Shown: piece by piece, positions 7,638 through 11,394 of the stretch
Numbering within the stretch: position 1 is the stretch's first letter
How the letters are laid out: every line of letters starts with the position of its first letter
NCBI GenBank assembly: GCA_025916675.1
Contig: CP098402.1
Coordinates: forward strand, 305,205-369,204
DNA from: Phycisphaera sp.
GTDB taxonomy: Bacteria > Planctomycetota > Phycisphaerae > Phycisphaerales > UBA1924
Direction: 5' to 3'
DNA: 64,000 nt
Notes under the pieces: model-generated
Database searches by the model: none
What the model was told of the DNA's origin: nothing
The model's input: only the letters and a program-made list of their open reading frames with translations
Program-made: the position numbers and the translations under genes

Positions 7638-9047
7638 TCAAGAACGCTTGATCGAGCGGATGATCTGGGCGATGGTGCGCCAGATGATCTTCAGGTCGAG
7701 CCACAGGCTCATGTTCTCGACGTACTCGATGTCGTAGCGGATCCATTCCTGGAAGTCGCTGTCCGACGCGCGGGTGCGTTTGACCTGCCAGAGGCCCGTG
7801 ACGCCCGGTCGCACGCTCAGGCGTGCCTCGCGCCAGCCGGGGCAGTACTGGTTTTCTTTGTACGGGCTGGGGCGTGGACCCACCACCGACATGTGGCCGA
7901 CCAGCACGTTCAGGAACTGCGGCAACTCGTCGATCTGGACTTTTCGAATGAATTTGCCAACCCGCGTGAGGCGTGGATCGTTCGCGATGTAGAACTGCGG
8001 CCCGTCGACCTGGTTCATCGCGGCCAGCTCGGCCTTCATCTTCTCGGCGTCCTTGCGCATCGAGCGGAACTTCAGGCACGGGAAGTCCTTGGCGTTGAGC
8101 GATTCTCGCGTGTGGGCGAAGAAGAACGGCCGGCCGTCCTCGAGCCAGATCGCCAGCATCACGAACGGGTAGATCGGCAGCGTGAAGAGCAGCGCGACCA
8201 GGGCGAACACGATGTCGAATCCGCGTTTGATCACCCGCTCGATGGGTTGCACCGAACGCGGTCGCAGCGGCTCTGTTCGCTCCGTGGGTTCCAGGTCGAG
8301 CCAGTGCACCCCGCCGGGGTCGGGCACGTGCTGGGGATCGTCCCACACGATGTCCGGCCCGACCATGAGCTGGTTCGCGTCCACGGTGCGTCCCGCGCCG
8401 ATCCAGACGCTGCCGATGCATTGGGCGCCCGGCTCGATCACGGCTGTGGGGTCGGCCCAGGTGCGATCGGTACGCGGCTCGGCACGATCGATCGTGCTAC
8501 TGGGCTTGCGCCAGCGCTCGACGAGCAAGCGGGCGCACCGCGCGAGCTCGGTCGCGTCGTCGGCATCAAACACGCGGGCATCGATGACCATCGGCCAGCG
8601 CTGCTCGCGGCGGACGGCCTTGCGGAGCTTGCGCCAGCCATCGCGCGGCGAGTCGGCCCCTTGCCACAGGCGTGCGACGGTCGGCCGATTGGTCATGGCC
8701 GCCCTCGCAAAGCGCGAGTCGTCGCTGCCGTAGACACGCTCGAGACGAACGAATTTGCCATCATCTTCTGAGATAATCCGCTCGCGGTAGGCGTGGTCGT
8801 CGAAGTCGTGCATGCGGAGCAGCACCAGGTCGGCGTCGTCCCATACGATGTGGTCGACCACCGGCGGGAGTTCGAACAGGCACAGCGTGCGCTGCTGGAG
8901 CAGCAAGAACAAGTGGGCGTGGGGCACCAGCGGTGTGGGCATCGCCCGGCGGACGACCTGCACGCCCCGCGACGCCCAGAAGCGGTCGTGCAGCGCAACG
9001 GCCGAGAGGCCAAAGACGGTCGGGGTGGCGGGGGGTTCGGCGATCAT
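7638..9047 (-). CDS. Polyprenyl-phosphate sugar-1-phosphate transferase (bacterial sugar transferase)
   Basis: Membrane enzyme expected to load the first sugar phosphate onto undecaprenyl phosphate, starting an exopolysaccharide or surface glycan. The C-terminal domain (about residues 255-469) carries one membrane hairpin, LKFRSMRKDAE, the Asp-Glu dyad in QIDELPQFLN, GHMSVVGPRP and RPGVTGLWQV. The N-terminal half is soluble; it lacks the four membrane segments of WbaP/WcaJ proteins and contains a short hexapeptide-like stretch (IEPGAQCIGSVWIGAG). The ATG at 9047 overlaps the stop of the preceding gene by 4 bases. It is the last of four coupled genes and the only one with an intact active site. 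Its stop abuts that of the convergent helicase. Confidence 0.88.
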   Translation of the reverse strand: MIAEPPATPTVFGLSAVALHDRFWASRGVQVVRRAMPTPLVPHAHLFLLLQQRTLCLFELPPVVDHIVWDDADLVLLRMHDFDDHAYRERIISEDDGKFVRLERVYGSDDSRFARAAMTNRPTVARLWQGADSPRDGWRKLRKAVRREQRWPMVIDARVFDADDATELARCARLLVERWRKPSSTIDRAEPRTDRTWADPTAVIEPGAQCIGSVWIGAGRTVDANQLMVGPDIVWDDPQHVPDPGGVHWLDLEPTERTEPLRPRSVQPIERVIKRGFDIVFALVALLFTLPIYPFVMLAIWLEDGRPFFFAHTRESLNAKDFPCLKFRSMRKDAEKMKAELAAMNQVDGPQFYIANDPRLTRVGKFIRKVQIDELPQFLNVLVGHMSVVGPRPSPYKENQYCPGWREARLSVRPGVTGLWQVKRTRASDSDFQEWIRYDIEYVENMSLWLDLKIIWRTIAQIIRSIKRS

Positions 9048-9682
9048 CGTGTGCCCGCCGTCGCAAGCTCGGTGGCCAATCGATCGGCTACGCGTCGTGC
9101 TTCTTCCCGCAGGATGTCCGCATCCGCGGCGGCAGACCCGCCGCCGTGCAGCACTTGGACGATCGCGCCGGGTCCCGGCCAGCCGGGCCCTCCGGTGCTC
9201 ACGGCGTGGGTGATGCCGGGCGTCGGCCCCCATAGCCCAGCGATAACGAATGCGGTGTCCACCACGAGGAACTCGTCGACCAGGTCAGAGTGGCGTGTAT
9301 GCCTGGTCTGCCAAAGGTTGCTAGATTCTTCAGCACCGATGGACGACCAGCCGCCCGCGCGCATCGCGTGGGTCGGCTCAAACGCCAGAAGGTCGCGGCG
9401 ATCTTGGGCGATGACAACGCGCAAGAAGGCTTCTGCACCTGTTGCGGACGACATATATCGCGCCGACGTATCTAGCACCTCGTTGTGTGGTGGATACGCG
9501 ATCGGCAATGTATCATCCCACGTCGGATCCCGATTCCAGGTGCCAACGCTCTGCGCCAGCCCTTGCTCGGCGGTCGGCAGGCTTTCGGGCGAGATCATTG
9601 GCGCTGCGGGGCGCGCGGGATCGACCAGGAAGACGCCGAGCGCCAGAAGCAGAACCAGTATGATGGGAAGCGTGCGGGTCAA
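9044..9682 (-). CDS. EpsI-like exosortase-associated protein
   Basis: A 212-residue protein with an N-terminal hydrophobic segment (residues 5-20) and a periplasmic domain. Position next to an exosortase homologue, length and the conserved GGW fit the EpsI family found with exosortases and exopolysaccharide genes. In typical members an H-x-P-x-x-C...P...GW segment precedes the tryptophan. Here the corresponding stretch reads FEPTHAMRAGGW, so the usual His and Cys are missing. Its ATG lies 30 bases after the exosortase stop, and its own stop overlaps the next start. Assignment rests mainly on context plus the short motif, so function is tentative. Confidence 0.6.
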   Translation of the reverse strand: MTRTLPIILVLLLALGVFLVDPARPAAPMISPESLPTAEQGLAQSVGTWNRDPTWDDTLPIAYPPHNEVLDTSARYMSSATGAEAFLRVVIAQDRRDLLAFEPTHAMRAGGWSSIGAEESSNLWQTRHTRHSDLVDEFLVVDTAFVIAGLWGPTPGITHAVSTGGPGWPGPGAIVQVLHGGGSAAADADILREEARRVADRLATELATAGTR

Positions 9683-9712
9683 GGGGGTTCCTCGTGTCGT
9701 CCTTTCGTCGGG

Positions 9713-10576
9713 TTATTGGTATGCCAGCGCGTACCGGCGCGCGGGTACCTGGGCGTATCGCAGCAGGCGGATGCCGCCGTACAGCATCCCCAAGGCGAGC
9801 GCGAGAGTGAGCCAGCCGCTCATCTGCGCCAGCATGGTCGCGGATGCCGGCCAGTTGTCGGCCAGGATGGCAAATGGCACGAGGCGTACGACGTTGGCGA
9901 CGATCGCCACGAGCGGGCTGGCGAGCACGAGGCCGATCCTCACGCCGTGGCGAAGGGGCATGCCGAACGCGAAGGCGTAGGTGACCAGACCGATGGCGGC
10001 GATCATCCGAACGCCCGCGAATCCACCCAGGCTGAGTTCGGCTGTCCCGACGATCAGGTCGCGGCCATTGACGTAGGCGGTTACGCCGAGGATCTCAAGC
10101 AGCCCCGCGGTGACGGCCAGGCTCCACGAACCCAGGATGTTGCTGACGGGCAGCAGCCACTCCATCGGTGCGGGTGCCAGGAAGAACAACGCGAACACGG
10201 CCGGCGACATACGCAGCATCACGCTGCGACCGACGACCGACCAGATGGCACCGATCAGCACCCCGATGGCCCCCAGGTGGAGCGCCAGGGTTGGGCCGAA
10301 GGTGCCGGCGAGCACATAAATCAGCCCGGCGACCGCCACGATCACCGGACCAAGCCATAACCCGCGCCGCCCCGCGCTGCGCAGGCGTCGCCGGCGGCAC
10401 AGGGCGAGCCAGCCAGCGACGGCCGGCACGAGCACGATGTACCCGTTGTCGGGGTCGGCTGTCGCGCTGATGTAGATGTCGCGCCACGCGGGCAGGCAGG
10501 CGAGGATGGCCGCAAGCGTTGCGGCGATAGCTTGCAGCGGGGCCCAGCGGCCCCAGGTTGTTGCTTCGACGCTCAT
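9713..10576 (-). CDS. Exosortase-family membrane protein lacking catalytic Cys and His
   Basis: Polytopic membrane protein of 287 residues with about eight hydrophobic segments and exosortase architecture. Exosortases cut and sort PEP-CTERM-type proteins with a Cys-Arg-His triad. The Cys motif (A-C-S-G-x-R) is replaced by GGFAGVR, with Phe where Cys belongs. The second motif keeps its Arg (NVVR). The His that normally stands four residues before the GW of the last motif is Ala (LAQMSGW). It should therefore be unable to act as a protease or transpeptidase. The start overlaps the end of the upstream gene by 4 bases. A role as an assembly or anchoring partner for the locus is inference only. 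Confidence 0.72.
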   Translation of the reverse strand: MSVEATTWGRWAPLQAIAATLAAILACLPAWRDIYISATADPDNGYIVLVPAVAGWLALCRRRRLRSAGRRGLWLGPVIVAVAGLIYVLAGTFGPTLALHLGAIGVLIGAIWSVVGRSVMLRMSPAVFALFFLAPAPMEWLLPVSNILGSWSLAVTAGLLEILGVTAYVNGRDLIVGTAELSLGGFAGVRMIAAIGLVTYAFAFGMPLRHGVRIGLVLASPLVAIVANVVRLVPFAILADNWPASATMLAQMSGWLTLALALGMLYGGIRLLRYAQVPARRYALAYQ

Positions 10577-11394
10577 GCGCCGGCCCCCAGCGTTCGATCG
10601 GTGAGGACCTGTCCGGCCGGAACAACCGCGCCCGGGCCCAAGAACGAACGGGCGACCACAGACTTGGCACCAATGCGCGCGCCGGCGAGGACAACAGCAT
10701 CCCGGACGCGGCCAGCTGGTGACACCTCCGCACCATCTTCAACGACCTGGAATGGCTCCCCATCCGCTTGGTAGGCCAGCGCCTCGAGGTACTGCTCACG
10801 GTTGCGGATAGGCAGGCACACCCGCTCGCCTCGTGCCGCACGGGCCACACGCACTCGGTGCCGCTCGGCAATGCCCGGCAGGCATTGCTCTTTAAAGTCG
10901 ATGTAGCCCGCGCCGGGGATCTCACGCATCACGGCCGCCGACACGAGCATCACACCCGTTGGGGTACCGTCGTGCTCGGCCAGCAACGCCACGTCGGCTT
11001 CCAGGGCGAGCAACCGAGCCACGACTTCAGGCAGTGTTCGCGTGAGCACACTCCCCCCGGTGGCGACGAGCATCATGCCGTCCTGGTCCTTGGCCGCGGC
11101 CCGCAAGACGCCGCCGGTGCCCAGGAAGGCCACGTCGTCGGGCTCGATCGTGGCCTGGCCCTCGGGCATGGACGTGGGCTTGGGATTTTTGCGATCGATG
11201 AGCACGCGCAGGGGTGGGGCCGAGCCGATGCTCTGGCACAGTTCCTGGTGGGCGGCGATCCACCGCTGGCCGATGGTCTGTTCGTCCAGCAACGGCAGGT
11301 CTAGAACGTTGCGCGCGGCGGCCTTGAGCAGCGGGGTGGGCCGGATCGCGCCGGCGAACAGCAACACCTGGCGCACAGAAGCCGTGCCGCTCAT
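10573..11394 (-). CDS. Sugar-nucleotidyltransferase-like protein with hexapeptide tail
   Basis: 273-residue protein laid out like NDP-sugar pyrophosphorylases such as GlmU: an N-terminal Rossmann-type part, then a short left-handed beta-helix (VRDAVVLAGARIGAKSVV, then GPGAVVPAG). The nucleotide-binding GxGxR signature expected near the N-terminus is absent; the corresponding sequence begins VLLFAGAIRPTPLL. It may be a non-catalytic or very divergent relative. The ATG at 11394 is preferred over an upstream alternative at 11499 because the family-like sequence begins there. First gene of the four-gene exosortase-like locus; it overlaps the next gene by 4 bases. Confidence 0.6.
   Translation of the reverse strand: MSGTASVRQVLLFAGAIRPTPLLKAAARNVLDLPLLDEQTIGQRWIAAHQELCQSIGSAPPLRVLIDRKNPKPTSMPEGQATIEPDDVAFLGTGGVLRAAAKDQDGMMLVATGGSVLTRTLPEVVARLLALEADVALLAEHDGTPTGVMLVSAAVMREIPGAGYIDFKEQCLPGIAERHRVRVARAARGERVCLPIRNREQYLEALAYQADGEPFQVVEDGAEVSPAGRVRDAVVLAGARIGAKSVVARSFLGPGAVVPAGQVLTDRTLGAGA

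Follow-up and report, generated by a model that had tools for sequence, protein, structure and literature searches.

An exosortase homologue and its EpsI-like partner without their signature residues in a polysaccharide operon of Phycisphaerales

Introduction

What keeps a membrane protease homologue in place once its catalytic residues are gone? The question is raised by four minus-strand genes at positions 7638-11394 of a 64,000-nt stretch of DNA from Phycisphaera sp. (Phycisphaerales; contig CP098402.1 of assembly GCA_025916675.1, positions 305,205 to 369,204), hereafter the window, from whose first letter all position numbers are counted. They encode, in order, a nucleotidyltransferase (NTase)-like protein (P0001), an exosortase homologue (P0002), an EpsI-like protein (P0003), and a sugar transferase (P0004). 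The original prediction, made from these letters alone, had held that the first three proteins have lost their signature residues and that the locus may be a non-proteolytic scaffold that channels or anchors a glycan; the coordinates, strand, and spacing that it gave for the four genes were all right on re-reading.

Exosortases are defined by three invariant motifs, CxG, NxxR, and HxxxG, and their predicted topology has the triad on the outer side of the membrane; they usually lie beside exopolysaccharide genes, and EpsI is described as a protein that "has no known function" (PMC1569441). The archaeosortase ArtA depends on a conserved Cys for its activity (PMC9263693).

Loss of the signature residues in P0002 and P0003

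P0002 belongs to the exosortase family, with a PF09721 match well over the cut-off (E 2.1e-26, 93.3 bits for a cut-off of 25.7; Pfam), and its eight hydrophobic segments correspond to eight transmembrane (TM) segments predicted from hydropathy only. When the protein is aligned to intact relatives, the catalytic Cys is gone, Arg231 of NVVR is kept, and Ala occupies the His column at residue 250, as had been predicted. The stretch around the Cys reads EACNGMRM (8 residues) in relatives and GGF-AGVRM, one residue shorter, in the window. Counting back from the Arg, Phe186 falls in the Cys column; MAFFT may set it beside the gap, and no Cys fits either way, so the Phe that had been proposed to replace the Cys stands beside a one-residue deletion. 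Besides Arg231, the protein retains Arg190, N228, and the glycines of CxG and HxxxG. Because two of the three catalytic motifs fail, with only NxxR preserved, P0002 should not be called an active exosortase: the known triad is lost by alignment, and the protein has probably lost all activity. A search of the PDB with its sequence returned nothing meaningful.

P0003, which directly follows the exosortase in the slot that EpsI occupies in relatives, has no Pfam or NCBIfam family match, and the same holds for its orthologue in L035. A profile of the genus copies aligns to the EpsI proteins of relatives over 193 columns (hhalign, 96% probability, E 2.6e-9), phmmer matches range from E 1.5e-4 to 8e-4, and in one relative, L053, EpsI passes the cut-off of PF11984/DUF3485 and falls below that of TIGR02914. 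On these comparisons P0003 is a diverged EpsI. It carries AQDRRDLLAFEPTHAMRAGGW in place of the CxDxRDMxGHYPPxCYPxxGW of relatives.

Both defects are common to all seven genomes of the genus, and are thus beyond chance; one of the two outcomes that the original prediction had named as refuting it, a single decayed copy, did not occur. The invariant Cys of CxG is lost in 7/7 copies, its column holding F in four, N in one, and D in one and being deleted in one, with the Gly kept throughout. The His of HxxxG is replaced by Ala (5), Ser (1), or Gly (1), again with the motif Gly kept, and the NxxR motif (N228, R231) is present in all seven. The Cys/His/Cys motif of EpsI is likewise broken in 7/7, each copy having RDLLA[FY], so that the predicted lack of the usual His and Cys extends to the whole genus. 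The His and Cys of GHYPPxCYP are found in 0/7 genus copies, compared with 120/121 cases in which an intact exosortase has EpsI after it. In a first sequence set, the triad was broken in the seven genus copies and intact in 53/53 others, six of which were the genus's own second copies.

An AF2 model of P0003 (predicted local distance difference test score, pLDDT, 82.5) gave no Foldseek match at E <= 0.001. VIA-align Z scores of at most 7.3 to PsbP, LpqN, the PknH sensor domain, Mog1, and EagT6/SciW-like folds are at a common level, and no function was drawn from them.

Retention under selection beside intact copies

The window genome, a single contig of 3.6 Mb that is 99.97% complete, encodes three exosortase homologues. 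Cys, Arg, and His are all present in the other two, which each stand next to an EpsI (PF11984 above the cut-off); the triad was read by alignment for one of them, locus B, and by eye and in its own genome only for the third type (L002-like). The exosortase of locus B (G000:C1:2417547) lies in a cluster with EpsI, a Wzc-type protein, and a tetratricopeptide repeat protein, together with nucleotide-sugar dehydrogenase-like and glycosyltransferase-like genes named from a reading of the sequence. All seven genomes of the genus have a second exosortase, and the six that were read have an intact triad and are accompanied by EpsI and Wzc. Substrates are apparently at hand as well: a search for the PEP-CTERM-like tags suggested by the original prediction found 15 TIGR02595 matches over the cut-off in the window genome (one with an internal stop), against 2/14 control genomes with any over-cut-off match. 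The PEP-CTERM proteins have two other exosortases available for their processing. Three of the matches lie within 2 kb, at G000:C1:2225439-2227355.

The median ratio of nonsynonymous to synonymous substitution rates (dN/dS, Nei-Gojobori method, NG86) is 0.25 for P0002 (21 pairs) and 0.24 for the intact locus-B exosortase (15 pairs), with synonymous changes near saturation in many pairs and the values correspondingly rough. Since this ratio equals that of the intact paralogue, P0002 is under purifying selection and not drifting. The corresponding medians are 0.25 for P0001 and 0.17 for P0004. In the exosortase tree, the genus clade has a stem of 1.94 changes per column and inner branches of 0.06 to 0.62, which we read as rapid change at first and constraint afterwards. 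The precise position of the window copies has weak support, and locus B belongs to a different group, which is well supported.

A remnant of a five-gene operon

A match to P0002 at E <= 0.001 is found in 95/201 genomes of the order. Among 47 stretches outside the genus, a P0001-like gene stands in line with the exosortase in 46 and a P0004-like gene in 44; EpsI comes after the exosortase, and before the transferase stands a further gene, which in the three relatives where it was read encodes a Wzc-like chain-length/tyrosine-kinase protein. The typical operon of relatives thus comprises genes for an NTase-like protein, an intact exosortase, an intact EpsI, Wzc, and a sugar transferase. wzc is absent from the window locus, and an intact exosortase-EpsI-Wzc set lies elsewhere in the same genome. 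From this comparison, the window locus is a remnant of the five-gene operon, from which wzc has been lost in the genus, and the arrangement of the relatives is likely the ancestral state. The features of the locus are collected in Table 1.

Table 1. Genes and residues of the exosortase-like locus, in window coordinates
Feature	Position	Strand	Basis or remark
P0001, 273 aa, NTase-like with C-terminal left-handed beta-helix (hexapeptide) tail	10573..11394	-	Marker gene of the operon family
Hexapeptide tail of P0001	about 10606-10746	-	
P0002, 287 aa, exosortase homologue without triad Cys and His	9713..10576	-	PF09721, triad columns, hydrophobic segments, dN/dS
Cys27 codon of P0002, at end of predicted TM1	10496..10498	-	Invariant in 7/7 genus copies
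Phe186 codon of P0002, in or beside catalytic Cys column	10019..10021	-	One-residue deletion in window copy
Arg231 codon of P0002, NxxR motif	9884..9886	-	Kept
Ala250 codon of P0002, triad His column	9827..9829	-	
C-terminal tail PARRYALAYQ of P0002, predicted cytoplasmic	9716..9745	-	P..RYALAYQ in 7/7 genus copies
P0003, 212 aa, EpsI homologue without EpsI motif; N-terminal TM and predicted periplasmic domain	9044..9682	-	Profile-profile comparison, phmmer
Altered EpsI motif AQDRRDLLAFEPTHAMRAGGW	9347..9409	-	Cys to Ala, His to Phe, Cys to Ala
P0004, 469 aa, polyprenyl-phosphate sugar-1-phosphate transferase	7638..9047	-	PF02397

P0001 and P0002 overlap by 4 bases, as do P0003 and P0004; a gap of 30 bases separates P0002 from P0003, whose start codon is TTG. 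Homologues of the first gene stand upstream of the exosortase throughout the order, and the N-terminal GxGxR signature is indeed absent from P0001. Since GxGxR is also missing in 110/112 operon homologues (first 30 matched residues), this is no recent loss at the present locus, and P0001 does not belong with P0002 and P0003 as a third member that lost its residues. For the catalytic domain of an NTase, the libraries matched the hexapeptide tail alone, and weakly, both in P0001 (Pfam E 0.086, NCBIfam E 4.3e-6, both below the cut-off) and in its relative L053; because only this C-terminal tail is detectable, the label nucleotidyltransferase is weakly supported.

The terminal gene was rightly called intact: P0004 has a full Bac_transf domain at about 7659-8228 (PF02397, E 6e-63; Pfam) and matches TIGR03025 at E 6e-77, which is below the cut-off of that family (NCBIfam). 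Residues 1-270 (window 8238-9047) have no Pfam match and contain a hexapeptide-like stretch; P0001 and P0004, both with such stretches, match each other at E 0.016 in one pair only. The whole protein has a single predicted hydrophobic segment, and near full-length homologues are present in the operon family. With this single segment P0004 presumably differs from the WbaP and WcaJ types. In L038 (G201) the P0004 orthologue is split over two frames (residues 1-185 and 165-469), by a frameshift or an assembly error. Elsewhere in the window, GC-rich 21-base tandem repeats occupy 519-711 (about 6.7 copies, 73% matches, also with a period of 63); close by begins the long open frame of a PBP2-like gene, named by eye, whose true start is probably further in.

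Recurrence of triad loss

Exosortase genes were tabulated across the order, after matches with a summed profile score under 100 had been dropped: 140 genes in 122 genomes, 113 of them directly after a P0001-like gene and 27 unlinked. The triad is broken in 18/140, and all 18 are operon-linked, the unlinked copies being intact in 27/27. The type of break differs between groups. In the genus (seven copies) Cys and His are lost and Arg is kept; in family f6, Arg and His are lost and Cys is kept in 7/8, with G049 and G055, also of f6, having Cys changed to Gly and His to Met. The last case, G041 (L198:6295-7820), belongs to another family and has Cys changed to Tyr only, with Arg and His kept and the second Cys of its EpsI changed to Ala; this exosortase and EpsI may represent a fresh loss. 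No intermediate triad state was found within the genus's own family, the nearest intermediate-like case being G041. Of the 18 broken cases, 10, among them the f6 copies, have no EpsI in the slot, and the other eight (G041 included) have one with a broken motif.

Among the genomes compared, a broken triad tends to go with the presence of a second exosortase: 17/19 two-copy genomes have a broken operon copy, the exceptions being G030 and G058, as against 1/62 single-copy genomes (Fisher p 2e-14, genomes being treated as independent, which they are not). This comparison covers the genomes matched by P0002, in which a second copy too divergent from P0002 would escape notice, and excludes 32 genomes found by P0001 only. 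Six of the 95 matched genomes (G002, G029, G060, G120, G133, and G179) lie outside the table, and weak second matches were left out. Also outside the counts are G234, G245, and G223:C59; L128 (G223:C64) and the fragment L188, which have no exosortase; L075 (G122:C35), which has no P0002 match; and L034, L035, and L036, which duplicate L038, L041, and L114.

Some loci in the set have other unusual forms. At L196:14391-15959 and L197:4522-6087, exosortase and EpsI share a single open frame, of 558 and 561 aa respectively, with the triad intact, directly upstream of a P0001-like gene and a broken exosortase. In L199:5277-7190 (G035), a P0001-like gene is followed by a very degenerate exosortase remnant, and Wzc, EpsI, and the sugar transferase are all without a match in the 13 kb stretch. 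In L153 (G195), the only one of the 121 intact cases with EpsI to lack the His and second Cys, GHYPPxCYP is deleted in frame, which may be an assembly error. One further intact copy, in G246, stops at a contig end.

Conservation on the predicted cytoplasmic side

Loops of the exosortases were assigned by hydropathy and charge and slightly widened for the comparison of identity. In the genus, identity of the predicted cytoplasmic loops (with the C-terminal tail) and of the periplasmic loops is 0.82 and 0.59 for the broken copies, against 0.67 and 0.79 for the unlinked intact ones. In f6 the corresponding values are 0.51 and 0.26 for the 10 broken copies, 0.60 and 0.53 for 13 intact operon copies, and 0.31 and 0.48 for 19 unlinked intact copies. 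The cytoplasmic excess of the broken groups is kept in three region definitions (permutation p <= 0.0025, columns being treated as independent). Four residues of the predicted cytoplasmic side, R61, P207, R213, and P278, are kept in 18/18 broken copies, as are W31, L57, G76, G109, G116, P135, P137, F202, and P221 elsewhere, and E43, R141, and the triad His are each kept in 1/18. The tail P..RY.LAYQ is common to the genus copies and the intact operon-type exosortases (P..RYTLAYQ). Such a shift is the pattern that would be expected if a cytoplasmic function and a periplasmic chemistry had been divided between copies.

Competing explanations

The reading that we favour for this genus, and to which we give about even chances, is that the operon copy is the relic of a split function and is still in use as a non-proteolytic partner. 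The ancestral operon would have encoded the NTase-like protein, exosortase, EpsI, a Wzc-type co-polymerase/kinase, and an initiating sugar transferase, and its exosortase would have had two jobs: C-terminal processing of PEP-CTERM proteins at the periplasmic face, together with EpsI, and a contact or scaffold role at the cytoplasmic face with the proteins that initiate the polysaccharide. We infer that the unlinked exosortase-EpsI-Wzc locus of the genus took over the first job, after which the operon exosortase would have lost its Cys and His, EpsI its motif, and the operon its wzc. Selection would have kept the 8-TM body, the basic cytoplasmic loops, and the C-terminal tail, and P0002 would work most likely as a non-proteolytic membrane partner of P0004 and P0001. 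Among the pieces of this reading, the residue loss and its retention through the genus, the selection, the intact paralogue, the recurrence, and the shift in conservation can be followed in the sequences themselves; the topology, the loss of activity, the direction of the takeover, and the cytoplasmic partner are its presumed parts. A wider form of it is more tentative, and we think it somewhat more apt to fail than to hold: operon exosortases in general may be two-faced, with a periplasmic protease acting together with an EpsI that is itself catalytically active, and a cytoplasmic face at the service of the transferase or the NTase-like protein, the faces being split between copies when a second exosortase-EpsI pair is present.

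A number of results weigh against the favoured reading. The origins of triad loss are few: four changes are needed on the P0001 tree and three on the sugar-transferase tree, and an independent-pairs test of two copies against broken triad has too few pairs to decide. Because a single origin for all 18 cases is rejected (approximately unbiased, AU, test, p 0.0025) while a clade of the genus with f6 is not (AU p 0.73 on the P0001 tree and 0.127 on the transferase tree), the trees point to a minimum of two origins and perhaps to three or four. The two faces are themselves a prediction from hydropathy and charge, and an AF2 model of P0002, from a 4-row alignment, was poor (mean pLDDT 53) and was not used. 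The reverse excess of the unlinked copies is not significant once the C-terminal tail and the surroundings of the triad are left out, and in the full set of 95 intact operon copies the difference between the cytoplasmic and periplasmic sides (0.44 and 0.51) is not significant. Disruption of epsH in Methylobacillus left methanolan production unaffected, according to Haft et al. (PMC1569441). Finally, among 20 genomes chosen for the apparent absence of an operon-linked exosortase, and thus not a random sample, eight have a P0001-like gene whose operon runs to the sugar transferase with the exosortase slot empty (p1-wzc-transferase in seven, p1-transferase in one). Since these loci keep the operon without the exosortase, a cytoplasmic role must be dispensable in those lineages, which include G064 and G139, of the same genus as G046, where a broken copy is kept.

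Broken copies can therefore be lost, and this makes slow decay the main rival, which we consider unlikely though well worth reckoning with. According to it, the second exosortase-EpsI locus has made the operon copy redundant, and the degenerating frame persists by translational coupling or by chance. The empty slot in 8/8 of those loci would be a possible end state, EpsI is already missing from 10/18 broken cases, and P0003, at a dN/dS of 0.48 against 0.22 for the locus-B EpsI (NG86), changes roughly twice as fast; with the four genes overlapping or almost overlapping, in-frame open reading frames could serve coupling. Coupling alone, however, conserves no residues, and the broken copies conserve the predicted cytoplasmic side, including the four residues found there in 18/18; the selection on P0002 is as strong as on the intact paralogue, and seven genomes, down to 54% identity, carry the gene without an internal stop. 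It is this location of the conservation that favours a non-proteolytic role on the polysaccharide side. The scaffold of the original prediction is partly supported, as a non-cutting role, and the eight related loci in which the exosortase is dispensable speak against it.

The same conservation bears on two further explanations. A regulatory decoy, in which the motif-less exosortase and EpsI bind PEP-CTERM substrates or the active exosortase uncleaved and so tune processing, strikes us as improbable: the intact paralogue and the PEP-CTERM matches in the same genome, the retained NxxR and glycines of CxG and HxxxG, and the invariance of the new EpsI motif RDLLA[FY] would all suit it, yet a substrate decoy should keep its periplasmic face, which is the less conserved one in the broken copies, and in f6 the EpsI slot of the broken copies is empty. 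A moved or different active site, for instance Cys27 with His100 and Arg190 or Arg231 in P0002, or the invariant Asp and Arg of the P0003 motif, is possible and stands as one more point against our reading, although we rate it slightly lower than the decoy. Cys27 is present in 7/7 genus copies, compared with 1/20 intact operon relatives of the family and 13/122 intact copies overall, and adjoins a predicted periplasmic loop; His100, Arg190, Asn228, and Arg231 are invariant in the genus too. His100 is, however, a general feature of the family (109/122 intact copies), and none of the other 11 broken copies has a counterpart of Cys27; EpsI, the partner protein, is itself without its Cys/His/Cys, and conservation is lowest in the periplasmic loops. 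The original prediction had named as refuting a Cys and a His that are intact at another point of the chain; this outcome is possible, the Cys being specific to the genus and the His general. An assembly or sequencing artefact is scarcely credible: most relatives are multi-contig assemblies, but the window genome is a single, nearly complete contig and the same defects recur in seven genomes, the other six at 60-81% identity. For the genus this explanation is refuted; for the single case of G041 it may yet hold.

Relation to known systems and implications

P0002 shares with the exosortase/EpsH family (PF09721, TIGR02602; XrtA, TIGR03109) its fold family, its eight predicted TM segments, the Arg of NxxR and that of the GMRM stretch, and its EpsI and polysaccharide neighbours, and differs from it in the genus-wide absence of the Cys and His that intact relatives and the genus's own paralogue possess. 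P0003 resembles EpsI/DUF3485 (PF11984, TIGR02914) in its position directly downstream of the exosortase, its N-terminal TM segment, and its remote profile similarity, and is set apart by the replaced motif and the lack of a library match. The operon of relatives has the same set of functions as the exopolysaccharide clusters of the XrtA/PEP-CTERM type, which encode a tyrosine autokinase (TIGR03018), a chain length protein (TIGR03007), and a glycosyltransferase (TIGR03013): the Wzc-like protein of a relative matches TIGR03018 and TIGR03007, and P0004 matches TIGR03013, all below the cut-off. Unlike those clusters, the operon family has an NTase-like first gene and one fused chain-length/kinase protein, and the window locus is missing wzc. 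In losing a catalytic motif while retaining fold and selection, P0002 is like pseudoenzymes in general; no description of a pseudo-exosortase was found in the literature searched, which was mostly outside subscription journals.

For EpsI, the evolutionary evidence indicates that it acts in the exosortase reaction, because the loss of its His and Cys is coupled to the loss of the triad: all 18 broken cases have no intact EpsI in the slot, and 120/121 intact cases keep its His and second Cys. For the exosortases, natural triad-less copies kept in the operon would separate the protease from the other role of the protein there, and the residues to which they point for a cytoplasmic role are R61, R213, and the C-terminal tail. 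The interior-facing part that is kept beside the genes for sugar polymers hints that the exosortase family may have a second job, one that involves no cutting.

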